DNA from: Microscilla marina ATCC 23134
GTDB taxonomy: Bacteria; Bacteroidota; Bacteroidia; Cytophagales; Microscillaceae
Reading direction: 5' to 3'
Assembly (NCBI RefSeq): GCF_000169175.1
Contig: NZ_AAWS01000003.1
Span: forward strand, 186,001 to 250,000
Length of the DNA stretch: 64,000 bases
Below are positions 12,093 to 63,695 of the stretch, in pieces (within the stretch, counting starts at the first letter, position 1; each line of letters begins with the position of its first letter). Both the position numbers and the translations under genes were made by a program. The notes under the pieces were generated by a model. It worked only from the letters and a program-made list of their open reading frames with translations. It made no database searches and was not told the origin of the DNA.

Positions 12093-12371
12093 GGAACGTG
12101 ATCGCCCCGTAAACGGGATTTCGGGCGTAGCCCTCAACAATAACCCCGATAAGAAATCGGGACTTTGAAGCTGTCCGGTTTAGAACAAATTAGCTTCGCA
12201 GAGCTTGAACTTCGTTCTGCGGTTCTCTTTACTGACTTTCGTTACTTTTAGCCTTTGGCAGAGCTCGGCGCAGCAGGGCTGCAGCCATCGGTTTTCGCCG
12301 TAGCTATAAAAGTGCCTCAGTCAGTCTTGAATATATGCCCTCAATCTCGACACTTATTTTGAACATGTTCC
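12093..12371. mobile_element. MITE, GGAAC-type (279 bp), abutting the previous element
   Basis: Ends GGAACGTG and CATGTTCC, flanked by TAA on both sides (12090-12092, 12372-12374). Nearly identical over its length to 46275-46560; the main difference is about 10 bp around the GTAGCTAT hairpin. It contains the GAGCTC-centred module (12251-12293) that recurs in other MITE families. Confidence 0.82.
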
Positions 12372-24803: not shown

Positions 24804-25004
24804 GTAATGGACAAAAAATAATCTTTCGATTTGGGAAATGACCTTTACTACTGATACTTCGTTATTTTTATTGCTCGTAGCGCTGCTACGAACGCAAAAA
24901 CCGATAGCTGCAGCTTGCTGCGCTGAGCTCTGCCAAAGGCTAAATGCCTCGCCTCAGTGGTAAATCTCTATCTCCAAATGGATACCTTATTTTTCAACCA
25001 TTAC
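24804..25004. mobile_element. MITE, G(T/G)AATGG family (201 bp)
   Basis: Ends GTAATGGACAAAAAATAA and TTATTTTTCAACCATTAC, flanked by TTA on both sides (24801-24803, 25005-25007). Very similar to 50004-50218 except for the central GAGCTC module (24899-24942), which that copy has replaced. It lies in the promoter region of the DnaQ-like gene and may influence it. Confidence 0.85.
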
Positions 25005-31228: not shown

Positions 31229-32549
31229 TCTAATGCTCTTCAACCAGTTCAATAATGCGTTAAAATCATCCTGAAAAACCTCTATTTGTTCAATATAGTT
31301 TTTCACCGTTTTCTTCTTTAATAATTTGATAGTCAGTGTTCTAAGTTCGGTAAAAAGCATTTGGATAGTTTTTTCTTTGACCTTAGTTGATCTTCTTTGA
31401 GAGTTACATCTCTAAGGAATGGTGAGAAATTAAATTACCATTCTTGAGGTAGAGGTTTTGTTTTGAGACGAGGCTATTTTTTGCGCCTATAGCAGCGCTA
31501 CGGGCAATAACCGATGGCTACAGCTACGCTGTGCCGAGCTCTGCCAACGGCTAAAAATAACGAAGTATCAAGGCGAAAAATCACCTCTCAGAGTGTAAAT
31601 TTATTTTTGAACAATTCCTAAGGTGGTTATTCACCTCGACACTCCAATGATTTCTTACTGCATCAAATATACCTTCCTTTTCTGTTTCATTAGATATATA
31701 ATAACTTACTTCGCTACTTATTTTTGCATTTTTTTGATTGATACGGGTTCTTTGAACTTTTACTAGGCTTTTAAAGGCTGTCTCATCCCAACGTGGATCA
31801 AAATCTTGCTTAATTATGTCATATAACCAATATTTTCTTTGCTCAACTCTCCCATGATTGAAGTCAAAAGTTGTTTTTTGATCTATTGCTGGAAACTCTT
31901 TGGCGTAATCAGTCATATCAGCGAGCAATATTGATTGTTTTTTTTAAGTCCAATTAAAAAGATTCCTCCTGCCTTAGTGATGGTTTTGGTAGTATCAGGA
32001 CAAAGCTGTAAAGCATCCAAAGTAATTTTTTGACTTGCAAGATCATTTTTAGAAAGTAAAGTACATAAAGCAGGTATTTCACTTTCTTTTTGCCCATCAT
32101 AGTAATTTTGGGCGATCACTTCTCCTGAATGATGGTTAACAATTTGAACTACCGCCTATCCTCGTTTTTTACCTGATTCAATACTTCCGCGTAACTCTTT
32201 ACCATCACCACTAAACCATTGCTTTTCCGCAGGGTCTAAACGAAAGTTATAATGCGTAAATAACAGGTAGTCAAATACTTCCATATCTACTTTTTGTAGT
32301 AAAATAGGTAGATGAGAACGAGAAACTACTGGGGGTTCTGGTATACCCAAAAAAGTACATAAAGCAGAATGGGTGTTGACCATAACTACGATGAATACTT
32401 GAAAGAACTCCATCTCTTTTGCGAAGTATACCTAATAATACGCCTAGCAAAACAAAAGCTAGGTTATGTACTTTGCCACGAGTATCTCTAAGATCTAAAG
32501 CTGGACAATTTTGCATTTCTTCATAAAAACTTTTTCCTTTGGCTAACAT
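31229..32549 (-). pseudogene. ISAs1-family DDE transposase remnant
   Basis: Pieces occur in order on the minus strand but in shifting frames. They are L-D-L-R-D-T-R-G-K-V-H-N-L-A-F (start near 32549); W-F-S-G-D-G-K-E-L-R-G with the first catalytic Asp; I-T-L-D-A-L-Q-L-C-P-D-T-T with the second; G-R-V-E-Q-R-K-Y-W; and R-N-H-W-S-V-E-V-N-N-H-L-R. Then, beyond the MITE, D-V-T-L-K-E-D-Q-L-R supplies the third acidic residue. At least three frameshifts plus the MITE insertion make it inactive. Assignment to the ISAs1 (H-repeat-like) group rests on the D-G-K-x-L-R, I-x-x-D-A and D-V-x-x-x-E-D motifs. Confidence 0.8.
31416..31618. mobile_element. MITE, G(T/G)AATGG family, inside the transposase (203 bp)
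   Basis: Ends GGAATGGTGAGAAATTAAAT and ATTTATTTTTGAACAATTCC are flanked by TAA on both sides (31413-31415, 31619-31621). Deleting the element and one TAA rejoins the transposase reading frame as N-H-L-R-D-V-T-L, which shows the true boundaries and a 3-bp duplication. Confidence 0.9.
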
Positions 32550-45834: not shown

Positions 45835-46275
45835 ATGAAAAGAAAGAATGTGTGGAAGGCATGCCTGATGGTATGCTTCAATTTGTTATTGTTAAGCTGT
45901 GGTCCCAGTCAATACGAAAATACCCTTGCCAAAAAGTGGAAACCCTCGTTTGACCCTGAAACCGAAATAAAAAAACGGGCAAAACAGCATTACGCCAAAA
46001 TGGGCAAAAAACATATAGATAAACTTAAGCAAGGCATTGTCCAAAAAGCAGCCCAAATGGTGTATGAGTTTAAGCCAGATGGCAAATACCGTATAGTGTT
46101 TGAAAAAGACGGCGAGCCCGAAGTAGGTACCTGGAAAGTGATAGAAGACGGTAAAGTTCTTTTTATCAAATCTGACCGAGGCAAACAGCAAAAAATTGCC
46201 ATCAAAAGCCTTACCGCAAAAAAAGTGGTACTAAGCATTGACGAAAACACCGAATTGGTGCTATTACCAGCTTAG
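45835..46275 (+). CDS. Small lipoprotein 6 of array
   Basis: A 146-residue paralogue: lipobox L-L-L-S-C-G, A-K-K-W-K-P-S-F-D-P (close to gene 4), Y-E-F-K-P-D-G-K-Y, G-T-W-K-V-I-E-D-G and I-K-S-L-T-A-K-K-V-V-L. The last residues L-L-P-A are followed by TAG, whose final G is the first base of a MITE. Before that insertion the stop would have been TAA, so the protein is unchanged. Last of the array. Confidence 0.77.
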   Translation: MKRKNVWKACLMVCFNLLLLSCGPSQYENTLAKKWKPSFDPETEIKKRAKQHYAKMGKKHIDKLKQGIVQKAAQMVYEFKPDGKYRIVFEKDGEPEVGTWKVIEDGKVLFIKSDRGKQQKIAIKSLTAKKVVLSIDENTELVLLPA

Positions 46276-46560
46276 GAACGTGATCGCCCCGTAAACGGGA
46301 TTTCGGGCATAGCCCTCAACAATAACCCCGATAAGAAATCGGGACTTTGAAGCTGTCCGGTTTAGAACATATTAGCTTCGCAGAGCTTGAACTTCGTTCT
46401 GCGGTTCTCTTTACTGACTTTCGTTACTTTTAGCCTTTGGCAGAGCTCGGCGCAGCAGGGCTGCAGCCATCGGTTTTCGCCGTAGCTATGGCTACGACTG
46501 CAAAAAGTGCCTCAGTCGAGTATACGCCCTCAATCTCGACACTTATTTTGAACATGTTCC
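46275..46560. mobile_element. MITE, GGAAC-type (286 bp), inserted on a stop codon
   Basis: Ends GGAACGTG and CATGTTCC, flanked by TTA on both sides (46272-46274, 46561-46563). Near-identical to 12093-12371. The left TTA contributes the TA of the lipoprotein 6 stop codon. Confidence 0.88.
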
Positions 46561-46659
46561 TTAAAAACAGTAGACACAAAAATCCTCAAGCCTTGGCATC
46601 CCGTCAGGGCTTTTGTATGTTTCGCCAGTGCTACAACAAACTCAAAAAAACATTGAACT

Positions 46660-49153: not shown

Positions 49154-49993
49154 ATGCAAAACGAAACTTATACCCTCATTACCGGAGGCAGCGAAGGCAT
49201 AGGGCGAGCCCTTGCCGAAGATTGTGCCAAACGAGGGATGAATATACTATTGGTGGCATTGCCCGCCCCACAACTTGAAAAAACCGCCCAACACATTCGT
49301 GATACCTATCATGTAAAAACCGAATATCTGGGGATAGATCTTACTCAAGAAAATGCCCCTTATGAGGTGCACGAGTGGACACAGCAAAAAGGATACGCAG
49401 TAGACATACTCATCAATAATGCCGGGTTTGGTTATGCAGGCGCTTTTGCCGACTATGCCAGCCCCGAGTTTTTTGACAAACTTATGCAGCTCAATATGCG
49501 GGCGTTGGTGTTGCTCAACCGTTTGTTTATTCCTGAGCTACAAAAACACCCCAAAGCCTATTTGATGAACCTGGGCAGTATGTCTTCGTTTCAGCCAGTA
49601 CCTTATCAGGCGGTATATGGGGCTTCAAAGGCGTTTATTTATAACTTTACCCGTGCCCTCAGAACCGAGCTTGCCGATTCCAACATTTCGGTAACAGTGA
49701 TGTGTCCTGGTGGCACCAATACCAACTCTATTAACAAAGCCCGTAATGGGGACTTGAAAGGGTTGGCAAAAAAATCTATCCTCAATCCCGAAGACATAGC
49801 CCCCAAAGCTATAGAGGCAATGCTAAAAGGCAAAGCGCAAGTAGTAACTGGACGAATAAACCGACTCATATTGGCAATCAGTAAACTGATTCCTTTGGGT
49901 ACTCGTCTAAAAATTGCGGCTAAAAATCTTAAGCCCAAGCAAGAGTTTAACAAAACTCAAGACGCTTCGCACAAGGCCGACGTAACGGTGTAG
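49154..49993 (+). CDS. Short-chain dehydrogenase/reductase (classical SDR)
   Basis: A 279-residue classical SDR: T-G-G-S-E-G-I-G-R at 9-17 for NADP(H), I-N-N-A-G-F-G near 95, Ser in N-L-G-S-M-S-S, and catalytic Y-G-A-S-K near 156-160. The motif set is close to the DltE/YqjQ-like SDR group. Substrate unknown. A MITE begins 10 bp past its stop codon. Confidence 0.9.
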   Translation: MQNETYTLITGGSEGIGRALAEDCAKRGMNILLVALPAPQLEKTAQHIRDTYHVKTEYLGIDLTQENAPYEVHEWTQQKGYAVDILINNAGFGYAGAFADYASPEFFDKLMQLNMRALVLLNRLFIPELQKHPKAYLMNLGSMSSFQPVPYQAVYGASKAFIYNFTRALRTELADSNISVTVMCPGGTNTNSINKARNGDLKGLAKKSILNPEDIAPKAIEAMLKGKAQVVTGRINRLILAISKLIPLGTRLKIAAKNLKPKQEFNKTQDASHKADVTV

Positions 49994-50003
49994 TTTTAAC
50001 TAA

Positions 50004-50218
50004 GTAATGGACAAAAAATAATCCCCGATTCATCGGGACTGTAAGCTTTCGATTTAGGAAATGACCTTTACTACTGACACTTCGTTATTTTTATTGCTCG
50101 TAGCGCTGCTACGAACGCAACCGTCGCGCAAGCTGGCTCAACATCCACAGGATGTTGCCATCTTGCCTCAGTGGTAAATCTCTATCTCCAAATGGATACC
50201 TTATTTTTCAACCATTAC
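50004..50218. mobile_element. MITE, G(T/G)AATGG family (215 bp)
   Basis: Ends GTAATGGACAAAAAATAAT and TTATTTTTCAACCATTAC, flanked by TAA on both sides (50001-50003, 50219-50221). Very similar to 24804-25004, but the central GAGCTC module is replaced by CATCCACAGGATG and neighbouring bases. Confidence 0.85.
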
Positions 50219-60631: not shown

Positions 60632-61828
60632 TTACTTTGGGTTGGCGAGTTTACCCATAAACAAGATACTACCTGTAGTATTGTCCTTAATCATAAATAT
60701 AAAAGGATGATCTGCCCTAAAAACCTTAGGTTTTACCGGGCGGTGGGCGCTGGCTGATTTTGTTCTCACAACAACCGCCGTAGCCGCCGCAGCTTCGGTT
60801 CCTTTTTCGCTTACCTCTACAAACGCCTTATGTACTACCTCTGAAATTTTCAGCGATTTGTTGCCTGTCATTCCACTAAAATCTGCGGTGTTACCAAAGG
60901 CCTGTTGCATCCCCATTGTTTTCAAAACATTCTTGAGTTTTACGTTTAAGGTCATCTTAAACTTAGGTAAACTTAGCTTTACCTGGGTATAAAATAGCCT
61001 ATCCATCAGTTTTTGATAACTTTCTGCCGTAAGCGAAGCCTCCAATTTGGCTATACCATTTATATCTTTAGGCAACAAAACCACCATACTCACCTTTTGG
61101 GAAGCATAAGGCAGCTCAATCACCTGTAAGCTTTCAGTTTCAGCGTATTTAAACTTGCGTTGCATTTGCATAAACTTAACATCACTTATTTTTTGCTTGC
61201 CAGCGATAAAATCCATTTTGCGGGTTTGGCTTTTTTTGAATTTGTATTTCCACTGGCCTTTAAAGTAAATAGCATTGGTGAGCACTAAACGAGTGGTTTG
61301 ATTGATGATCCCTTTAGGAATCAAGTTTTTGATCTTACGCTGGGTTTTGTCCTCTACCCATTTGTTAATGATCAACCTCGATTTTTCAGGTTGTTGTTTA
61401 AAGTCAAGGCGTTTAACCTTTGCTCGATAACAGCTTTGGGTAAGCCCCAAATATGCTTTTAAAAATTTCTGACTTTTTTCGCTCCAAAGTGCATTGGCTA
61501 CTGATAGCTGTAAGCCTTTGGTGTTGAGTTGGTTAAGGTGAGTGTTGAGGTTTTTAAAGTCTTGGTGTACCGAGTTTTTGGGAAGGTGCAGCGCATTGGC
61601 TATTTCTTGGGCTGTACTACCTTTTGCCCCTGCATAGGTCATAGCCAGTGCCGACGAAATGCTATAAGGCGATACAAACACGTTTTTTTGAGGATTGCTA
61701 CTCAGTTTTTTATAAAGCTCCAGGGCAAACTGGTTGCTGCCCTTGACTGTGGGGCTATTTTGTGAGTTTTGGGCTTGGGTATTAAACGCCAAGAGCCCTA
61801 GTAGCATTATTAATATTCGGGAATTCAT
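60632..61828 (-). CDS. Secreted serpin 1 (serine protease inhibitor)
   Basis: A 398-residue serpin with a signal peptide (about 1-19). Family landmarks are N-V-F-V-S-P-Y-S-I-S-S-A-L-A-M near 49, L-T-N-A-I-Y-F-K-G-Q-W, the breach and hinge V-S-E-K-G-T-E-A-A-A-A-T-A, and the C-terminal F-R-A-D-H-P-F-I-F-M-I. The small-residue hinge means the loop can insert, so it should be inhibitory. Counting 17 residues from the hinge Glu places Lys at P1 and Ser at P1', which predicts inhibition of trypsin-like proteases. It probably acts in the periplasm or outside and is one of two adjacent serpin genes on this strand, the other starting at 63695. Confidence 0.93.
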   Translation of the reverse strand: MNSRILIMLLGLLAFNTQAQNSQNSPTVKGSNQFALELYKKLSSNPQKNVFVSPYSISSALAMTYAGAKGSTAQEIANALHLPKNSVHQDFKNLNTHLNQLNTKGLQLSVANALWSEKSQKFLKAYLGLTQSCYRAKVKRLDFKQQPEKSRLIINKWVEDKTQRKIKNLIPKGIINQTTRLVLTNAIYFKGQWKYKFKKSQTRKMDFIAGKQKISDVKFMQMQRKFKYAETESLQVIELPYASQKVSMVVLLPKDINGIAKLEASLTAESYQKLMDRLFYTQVKLSLPKFKMTLNVKLKNVLKTMGMQQAFGNTADFSGMTGNKSLKISEVVHKAFVEVSEKGTEAAAATAVVVRTKSASAHRPVKPKVFRADHPFIFMIKDNTTGSILFMGKLANPK

Positions 61829-62233: not shown

Positions 62234-62460
62234 GGAACAGAAAAAAAATAACCCCCGAATCAAGTTCGGGGCTGTAAGTTTTCAGTTTGGAGGTGCTCTT
62301 TCACCCTGATACTTCGTTACTTTTAGCCTTTGGCAGAGCTCGGCGCAGCAGGGCTGCAGCCATCGGTTTTAGCCGTAGCTATGGCTACGCCTGCAAAAAG
62401 TGCCTCGTCTCAGAATAAAATCCCTACCTCAAAATCGGTAATTTATTTTTTCACCATTCC
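62234..62460. mobile_element. MITE, GGAAC/GGAATGG type (227 bp), inserted on a stop codon
   Basis: Ends GGAACAGAAAAAAAATAA and TTATTTTTTCACCATTCC, flanked by TAA on both sides (62231-62233, 62461-62463). The serpin 2 stop, read on the minus strand, is TAG formed by the target TA and the element's first base. Confidence 0.88.
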
Positions 62461-63695
62461 TAAATGGCTTGTTTGGGGGTAATAAGTCTGCCAATAAATA
62501 AAATACTACCCGTGGTGTTGTCTTTAATGATAAACATAAATGGATGATCTGCCTTAAATATTTTAGGAGGAATAGGTTGTTCAGGATTGTAGGAGGTAGA
62601 CCTGGGTCTTGACATAATAACGGCAGTAGCCGCCGCAGCTTCGGTTCCTTTTTCGCTCACCTCTATAAACGCCTTATGTACCACCTCTGATATTACCAAA
62701 GATTCACTCTGCATGATTTTGCTAAAATCGGCCTGTTTGGTGAAAGGTATTCTCATTCCCAAGGCTTTTAAAGCATTTTTGAGTGGAACATTTTTGGTCA
62801 TTTTAAACTTGGGTAAGTGTAAGATAACTTTTGTGTGAAACAAGCTTGTTGTAAGCGCTTGATAGGTCTTTGACGTAAGCCATTGTTCCACCTGATAGAG
62901 CCCGTTTTTATGTTTGGGCAACAATACCACCGTACTCACTTTGTCTCCTGCATAAGGTAACTCTATTGCCTGTAAAATCGCATTTTCAGTATATTTAATT
63001 GAGTTAGTAATGTGCATAAACTTTATATCAGGGTAAGTGATCTTATGGGCGATAAAGTTCATCTTACGGGTATTGCTTTTATCAAATCTGAGTTTCCATT
63101 TCCCTTGAAAGTAAATGGCATTGGTAAGCACCATACGAGTGTTGCCACTGATCATACCAGAGGGAATAAGGTTTTTGATTTTATCCTGAGTTTTTTTGGC
63201 TACCCATTGATTGATCACTATTCTTGATTTTTTTGGCTGATTTTTAAAATCCAATTTGCCCAGTTTAGCCTGATAATAGGTGTGATTTAATTTGAGAAAT
63301 GAAGGTTGAAACTTTTTACTTTTTTCGCCCCAGATCGCATTGACTATCGAGAGCTGTAAACCTTTGCTGTTGAGGTGGTTGAAATGATGATTCAAAAATT
63401 GATAATCTTTATCTAACGATTTGGGGCTAAAATGAAGTGTATGCGCCATTTGCTGCGCGGTACTGCCTTTTGCCCCAGCGTAAGTCATGGCCAATGCCGA
63501 TGAAATGCTGTAGGGAGATACAAATACATTATTATCTTGGGTCTGGTGAGAGGCTTTTGATAATTGCTTGTAAAGTTGCAAAGCAAAGCGAGTGTTGCCT
63601 TGTACAGTAGGGTTATTGGGCAAAAGTTGGGCTTGTAAACTAACACACAGCAGGCATAGCAGTAGGGTCATAAGAAAAGAGGTACGGTGTATCAT
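62460..63695 (-). CDS. Secreted serpin 2
   Basis: A 411-residue paralogue of serpin 1 with a signal peptide (about 1-22). It keeps V-F-V-S-P-Y-S-I-S-S-A-L-A-M, L-T-N-A-I-Y-F-Q-G-K-W and the inhibitory hinge V-S-E-K-G-T-E-A-A-A-A-T-A. The reactive loop continues V-I-M-S-R-P-R-S-T, so the canonical P1 position falls on Pro with Arg on either side. Either the scissile bond is shifted by one to an Arg, or specificity is altered; both differ from serpin 1. The C-terminal F-K-A-D-H-P-F-M-F-I-I is normal. The stop codon is formed at a MITE boundary (see that element). Confidence 0.93.
   Translation of the reverse strand: MIHRTSFLMTLLLCLLCVSLQAQLLPNNPTVQGNTRFALQLYKQLSKASHQTQDNNVFVSPYSISSALAMTYAGAKGSTAQQMAHTLHFSPKSLDKDYQFLNHHFNHLNSKGLQLSIVNAIWGEKSKKFQPSFLKLNHTYYQAKLGKLDFKNQPKKSRIVINQWVAKKTQDKIKNLIPSGMISGNTRMVLTNAIYFQGKWKLRFDKSNTRKMNFIAHKITYPDIKFMHITNSIKYTENAILQAIELPYAGDKVSTVVLLPKHKNGLYQVEQWLTSKTYQALTTSLFHTKVILHLPKFKMTKNVPLKNALKALGMRIPFTKQADFSKIMQSESLVISEVVHKAFIEVSEKGTEAAAATAVIMSRPRSTSYNPEQPIPPKIFKADHPFMFIIKDNTTGSILFIGRLITPKQAI

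Follow-up and report, generated by a model that had tools for sequence, protein, structure and literature searches.

Stop codons are probably tolerated landing sites, not special targets, of TWA-duplicating MITEs in Microscilla marina

In a 64,000-nucleotide stretch of DNA from Microscilla marina ATCC 23134 (hereafter the window), a short non-autonomous element (MITE) lies exactly on the stop codon of an open reading frame (ORF). Comparison with a same-genus genome confirms that the insertion turned TAA into TAG and left the protein unaltered, which makes this a case, resolved to the base and proven by an empty site, in which a mobile element swaps one stop codon for another. We show herein how often related elements land on stop codons, a frequency for which there is now a counted answer. 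Stop codons probably mark the margin of a permissive 3' zone in which landing is tolerated, and are not a special target; an apparent stop-codon preference can arise from a target motif together with selection.

Results

The affected ORF, called lipoprotein gene 6 in a preliminary description of this DNA, reads CCA GCT TAG at its 3' end, and the last G is both base 1 of the 286-bp element and base 3 of the stop codon (Table 1). The terminal inverted repeats of the element are alike at 9 of 11 positions, as in a MITE. In-silico excision of 46275-46560 together with one target-site duplication (TSD) yields GCT TAA AAA. The same bases, preceded by CCA and free of any element, form a natural empty site, CCAGCTTAAAAACAG, in the one same-genus genome searched for this comparison (G001, contig C8, locus L311), where the flanks are 95% and 94% identical to those in the window. 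The protein has a 96% identical counterpart in that genome and showed no match to Pfam. The preliminary description had placed a MITE exactly on this stop codon and had assigned the T and A to the duplicated target and the G to the element; direct reading shows this to be correct to the base, for an element with a 3-bp TSD and a G at its start. Its further claims, that removing the element restores TAA and that the protein is unchanged, agree with the natural empty site, the former also with the joined sequence.

Table 1. Positions of the elements, duplications and genes discussed. Plain numbers are window positions; other entries carry genome (G), contig (C) and locus (L) labels.
Feature	Position	Strand	Remarks
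Family A copy	12093..12371	+	TSD TAA; intergenic
Related element, GTAATGG ends	24804..25004	+	TSD TTA
Family B element	31416..31618	+	GGAATGGTGAG / GGAATTGTTC; TSD TAA
Lipoprotein gene 6 ORF	45835..46275	+	146 aa; ends in TAG now
Left TSD, TTA	46272..46274	+	TA = stop bases 1-2
Present stop codon, TAG	46273..46275	+	T46273 and A46274 from target, G46275 from element; TAA in empty site
Family A non-autonomous element (MITE), 286 bp	46275..46560	+	Imperfect terminal inverted repeats GGAACGTGATC / GGAACATGTTC (second end reversed)
Right TSD, TTA	46561..46563	+	Directly after element end 46560
GTAATGG-type element	50004..50218	+	TSD TAA; starts about 10 bp past stop of ORF 49154-49993
Adjacent serpin gene	60632..61828	-	
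Left TSD, TAA	62231..62233	+	
Second element, 227 bp	62234..62460	+	Ends GGAACAGAAAA / GGAATGGTGAAAA
Serpin gene, 411 aa	62460..63695	-	Stop TAG (62462-62460) takes in the element's first base
Right TSD, TAA	62461..62463	+	
Family A copy, about 1.03 kb	G000:C27:116187-117223 (L139 4143-4777)		
Family A copy, about 1.03 kb	C17:53710-54746		
Family A copy, about 1.03 kb	C65:40298-41327		
Family A copy with IS110-type gene	C56:43841-45580 (L145 5516-6565)		
Family A copy with IS110-type gene	C15:121177-122823		
Family A copy with IS110-type gene	C2:157285-159090		Decayed
12-base palindrome	G000:C2:49408 (L175)		
12-base palindrome	G000:C31:39778 (L194)		

Two adjacent serpin genes lie on the minus strand of the window, and the one at 62460-63695 bears a stop-codon element of its own. 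This gene now ends in ATT TAG; joining the flanks gives ATT TAA. Since the serpin relatives found are distant (36-44% identity), this empty site, in place of a natural one, is deduced from the duplication, and the former stop would have been TAA; the C-termini of these relatives end within a few residues of that of the window protein. The two stop-site elements share a 94-base stretch that is 98% identical (46420-46513 and 62313-62406). By our criteria the window contains six such elements. If 18 in 174, as sampled below, is taken as the rate, simple arithmetic gives a probability of about 0.12 that at least two of six fall on stops; the serpin case, cited earlier as a sign that the first was not chance, therefore has the same structure but is weak evidence on its own.

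Several related MITE families, with ends of the form G(G/T)AA(C/T), are present in high numbers in the genome (9.77 Mb in 135 contigs). The pattern TNAGGAACRTGNTC matched the genome 119 times, compared with once for the reversed pattern; a second pattern, for other GGAAT-ended families, matched 120 times, the family A left end 53 times and the GTAATGG end type 64 times. The 178 copies have a median length of 192 bp and, as expected of MITEs, are short, numerous and devoid of a transposase gene of their own. Among 37 genomes searched (its own and 36 relatives), family A was present only in its own and the same-genus genome, and most of the seven family A loci examined in the sister species have TWA flanks. 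The examined stretches of the genome and the window together yielded at least five end types with TWA duplications and G(G/T)AA(C/T) starts. Elements with differing ends have inner modules in common, a pattern which suggests that modules have been traded between families and that one missing transposase may stand behind them.

Equal flanking triplets were found in 161 of 181 strict-end pairs, and unequal ones in 20. The equal triplets comprised 86 TTA, 72 TAA, 2 TAT and 1 AAA, such that 158 of 161 are TTA or TAA, in keeping with the TSD of constant length typical of a MITE; neither TGA nor TCA occurred once among the 161. A site logo of 147 insertions shows C at position -1 in 67% (background, 19%) and G at position +3 in 56% (background, 15%), and CTTAG accounts for 52 of 174 insertions, compared with 704 of 25,757 non-coding sites. 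The target is therefore C-TWA-G and not, as had been proposed, TNA.

To count copies on stop codons, 198 stretches around copies were combined with the window (1.95 Mb of the 9.77-Mb genome), each element and one TSD were removed by script, and a hexamer model was used to call genes in what remained. These calls, which come from our own caller without annotation, served to class insertions and all TTA/TAA sites alike, and distances refer to called genes only; lowering the hexamer threshold from 8 to 5 altered the results little. Left out before counting were 27 end pairs with unknown ends, a pair at C10:97651 that contains an ordinary gene, the 20 strict-end pairs with unequal flanks, the 3 with TAT or AAA, and 4 of the 178 copies that lay 1500 bp or less from the end of an examined stretch. 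The usable copies numbered 174.

Coding sequence received only 10 of the 174 insertions despite holding 34,243 of 60,000 TTA/TAA sites; 146 insertions and 24,925 sites were non-coding, and 18 insertions and 832 sites fell on stop codons. Compared with all non-coding TTA/TAA sites, 5.3 stop hits would be expected of 164 without weighting (P = 7e-6) and 7.64 of 164 when sites are weighted by the -1/+3 motif (P = 0.0007), although the coding fraction is only 0.645 and missed genes among far non-coding sites inflate both of these comparisons. When the motif-weighted comparison is confined to sites downstream of genes, the excess dwindles: the ratio is 1.59 for 2-200 bp (P = 0.058, borderline), 14.3 hits of 68 are expected for 2-100 bp (P = 0.17), and 17.4 are expected for 2-40 bp (ratio, 1.06; P = 0.48). 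Insertions per 1000 weighted sites number 15.0 on stops, 20.0 at 2-20 bp downstream, 9.1 at 21-40 bp and 3.9 beyond 500 bp. Density on stops is thus no higher than at 2-40 bp downstream, and stops are therefore tolerated sites rather than a special target. A held-out set, rich in the GTAATGG end type, had 2 of its 31 copies on stops (expected, 0.9 naively and 1.3 with the motif), which is consistent with the main set and adds no strength to it.

In 12 of the 18 stop cases the TAA stop served as the duplicated target and was kept intact, and the element then contributes no base to the stop. TAA became TAG in three (both window cases and C26:94670), and in the remaining three the stop had been TAG beforehand. 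The preliminary description held that an element starting with G turns TAA into TAG, which makes stop codons harmless landing sites, and that this reading would fail unless copies fell on stops more often than expected from all TNA sites. The conversion is mechanically true but covers only 3 cases out of 18; stops do carry more copies in the 174-copy sample than TNA-type sites as a whole would predict, but this excess mostly disappears once the motif and the position at gene 3' ends are taken into account. As a whole, that interpretation is partly supported.

Discussion

Insertion driven by the motif, followed by selection, is the most economical account of these data, and we consider it likely to be right. 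The MITE families with G(G/T)AA(C/T) ends and a TTA or TAA TSD would be moved by a putative transposase that cuts C-TWA-G-like sites. Insertion would occur wherever such a motif is present, and selection would then purge most copies in coding sequence; the region just past the last sense codon would be the first place where insertion is free of cost. Two features place stops within this permissive zone: TAA is one of the target triplets, and a TTA is included in T-TAR. Insertion at TAA would leave TAA in place, and insertion into a TTA that overlaps a stop should always rebuild TA+G, or TAG, because both element ends start with G. The richness of the 3' zone probably reflects selection and not insertion choice.

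The density around stops also bears on a different possibility, namely that transposition is actively directed to gene 3' ends or stops, for instance by RNA polymerase that has stalled or by ribosomes at termination. Density peaks in the interval from -1 to +20 bp relative to the stop, where 37 insertions correspond to 15-20 per 1000 weighted sites, compared with 4-12 farther away, and convergent-gene intervals hold 18 copies against 17.8 expected, although tolerance alone might produce an enrichment there. This lack of a convergent-gene excess is unlike what pure tolerance predicts and leaves slight room for active 3' targeting. Similarly, in view of the motif-weighted excess over all non-coding sites and the borderline result for 2-200 bp, stops or the first 20 bp may be preferred to some additional degree. 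However, the peak lies off the stop itself, as the near-unity ratio to 2-40 bp indicates, and about 10 insertions per 1000 are also found 11-100 bp upstream of starts, as survival outside coding sequence would produce. We thus regard active targeting as unlikely, and slightly more doubtful still is a version in which the transposase would steer to the first 20 bp around or after stops through a transcription or translation termination cue plus C-TWA-G, a safe-site strategy in which the leading G ensures a stop.

Elements might also be retained at gene ends for their usefulness as a terminator, an mRNA-stabilizing hairpin or a stop-codon donor. Folding of the RNA from the window copy is better than that of shuffled sequences (z = -3.61), and BOX repeats of pneumococcus form 3' extensions of operons (PMC3049150). 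An Rfam scan of the window gave zero matches. Nonetheless, neither end of family A preferentially faces the gene (left 5 and right 4 on stops; 8 and 9, respectively, within 60 bp), and a terminator or hairpin role was judged unlikely because this orientation bias is absent. Moreover, no stop base is donated in the 12 cases of intact TAA, and the sister species manages without the window copy, all of which renders retention for usefulness improbable. That both window cases are random insertions is scarcely credible given the 18 stop hits against 5.3 expected on non-coding sites, even though the two-of-six probability and the held-out set would accommodate it; chance fares better only under a null limited to gene-proximal, motif-matched sites.

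Presumably a single missing transposase serves all the families. A profile search of the genome for PF13359 (DDE_Tnp_4), which we take to be the PIF/Harbinger-type transposase domain, gave 0 matches, where the control matched in 1 of 14. PF01609 (DDE_Tnp_1) identified 22 loci, none of them flanked by TTA or TAA plus a G(G/T)AA(C/T) end pair; the PF13340 (DUF4096) search gave one decayed match below threshold and none over the cut-off. Consequently no autonomous relative with matching ends was present among the PF01609, PF13359 and PF13340 matches. Long pairs of terminal inverted repeats with open frames were considered as autonomous candidates and rejected, as they looked nested or fortuitous; proteins from two of them had no match in Pfam. 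The TWA triplets and G(G/T)AA(C/T) ends common to several families offer a lead toward this transposase.

Tourist is the name given to MITEs of the PIF-Harbinger type. The TWA target duplication described for PIF/Harbinger-type elements (PMC4482050) is found here as well, but those elements are eukaryotic, and the PF13359 protein is absent from this genome. The IS1031 group of the IS5 family has a TNA target with a 3-bp repeat (PMC12016507), and a 3-bp T-N-A duplication is shared with it; here, however, only TTA and TAA with C and G flanks are used, and matching DUF4096 and DDE_Tnp_1 loci are lacking as noted above. The absence of TGA and TCA, which an element accepting any middle base should show, speaks against derivation from the IS1031 group. 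Membership is established for neither PIF/Harbinger nor the IS1031-type IS5 elements.

Short repeats that supply stop codons are already known, and the BOX element of Streptococcus pneumoniae, likewise non-autonomous, is the closest precedent we found. According to PMC3049150, the repeat overlaps coding sequence in 58 cases and in 36 of them encodes the stop at the very 3' end, truncation is not clearly evident in these 36, and tolerance at the 3' end is offered as a reason for the placement of such repeats. In the present case, unlike for BOX, the route is documented base by base (TSD plus one G), as is a natural empty site. Correia/NEMIS, RUP, ERIC and RPE are small repeats, most with terminal inverted repeats, that adjoin or are fused with genes (PMC2229807); they differ from the present families in having mostly TA termini and are set apart by family name and host. 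Our literature search, mostly without subscription papers, found none that names these families or counts stop hits of TWA-MITEs genome-wide. In sequence and structure, BOX and the present MITEs are not known to be related.

Family A copies longer than 1 kb contain nested insertions. Three copies of about 1.03 kb (1030-1037 bp) have the same insert in common, which Rfam identifies in the scanned C27 copy as a group II intron (RF01999 and RF00029); open frames in these copies do not exceed 79 residues, and a reverse-transcriptase frame is apparently absent. Three other copies carry an IS110-type transposase gene inside, one of them decayed, and PF01548 and PF02371 were identified in the gene of the C56 copy. 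At two further loci, a perfect duplication, TAA..TAA or TTA..TTA, encloses a 12-base palindrome, GGAACATGTTCC, and the reversed-sequence control gave zero TWA-flanked palindromes of this kind. Each may be either a footprint or an element of which nothing but the two ends is left.
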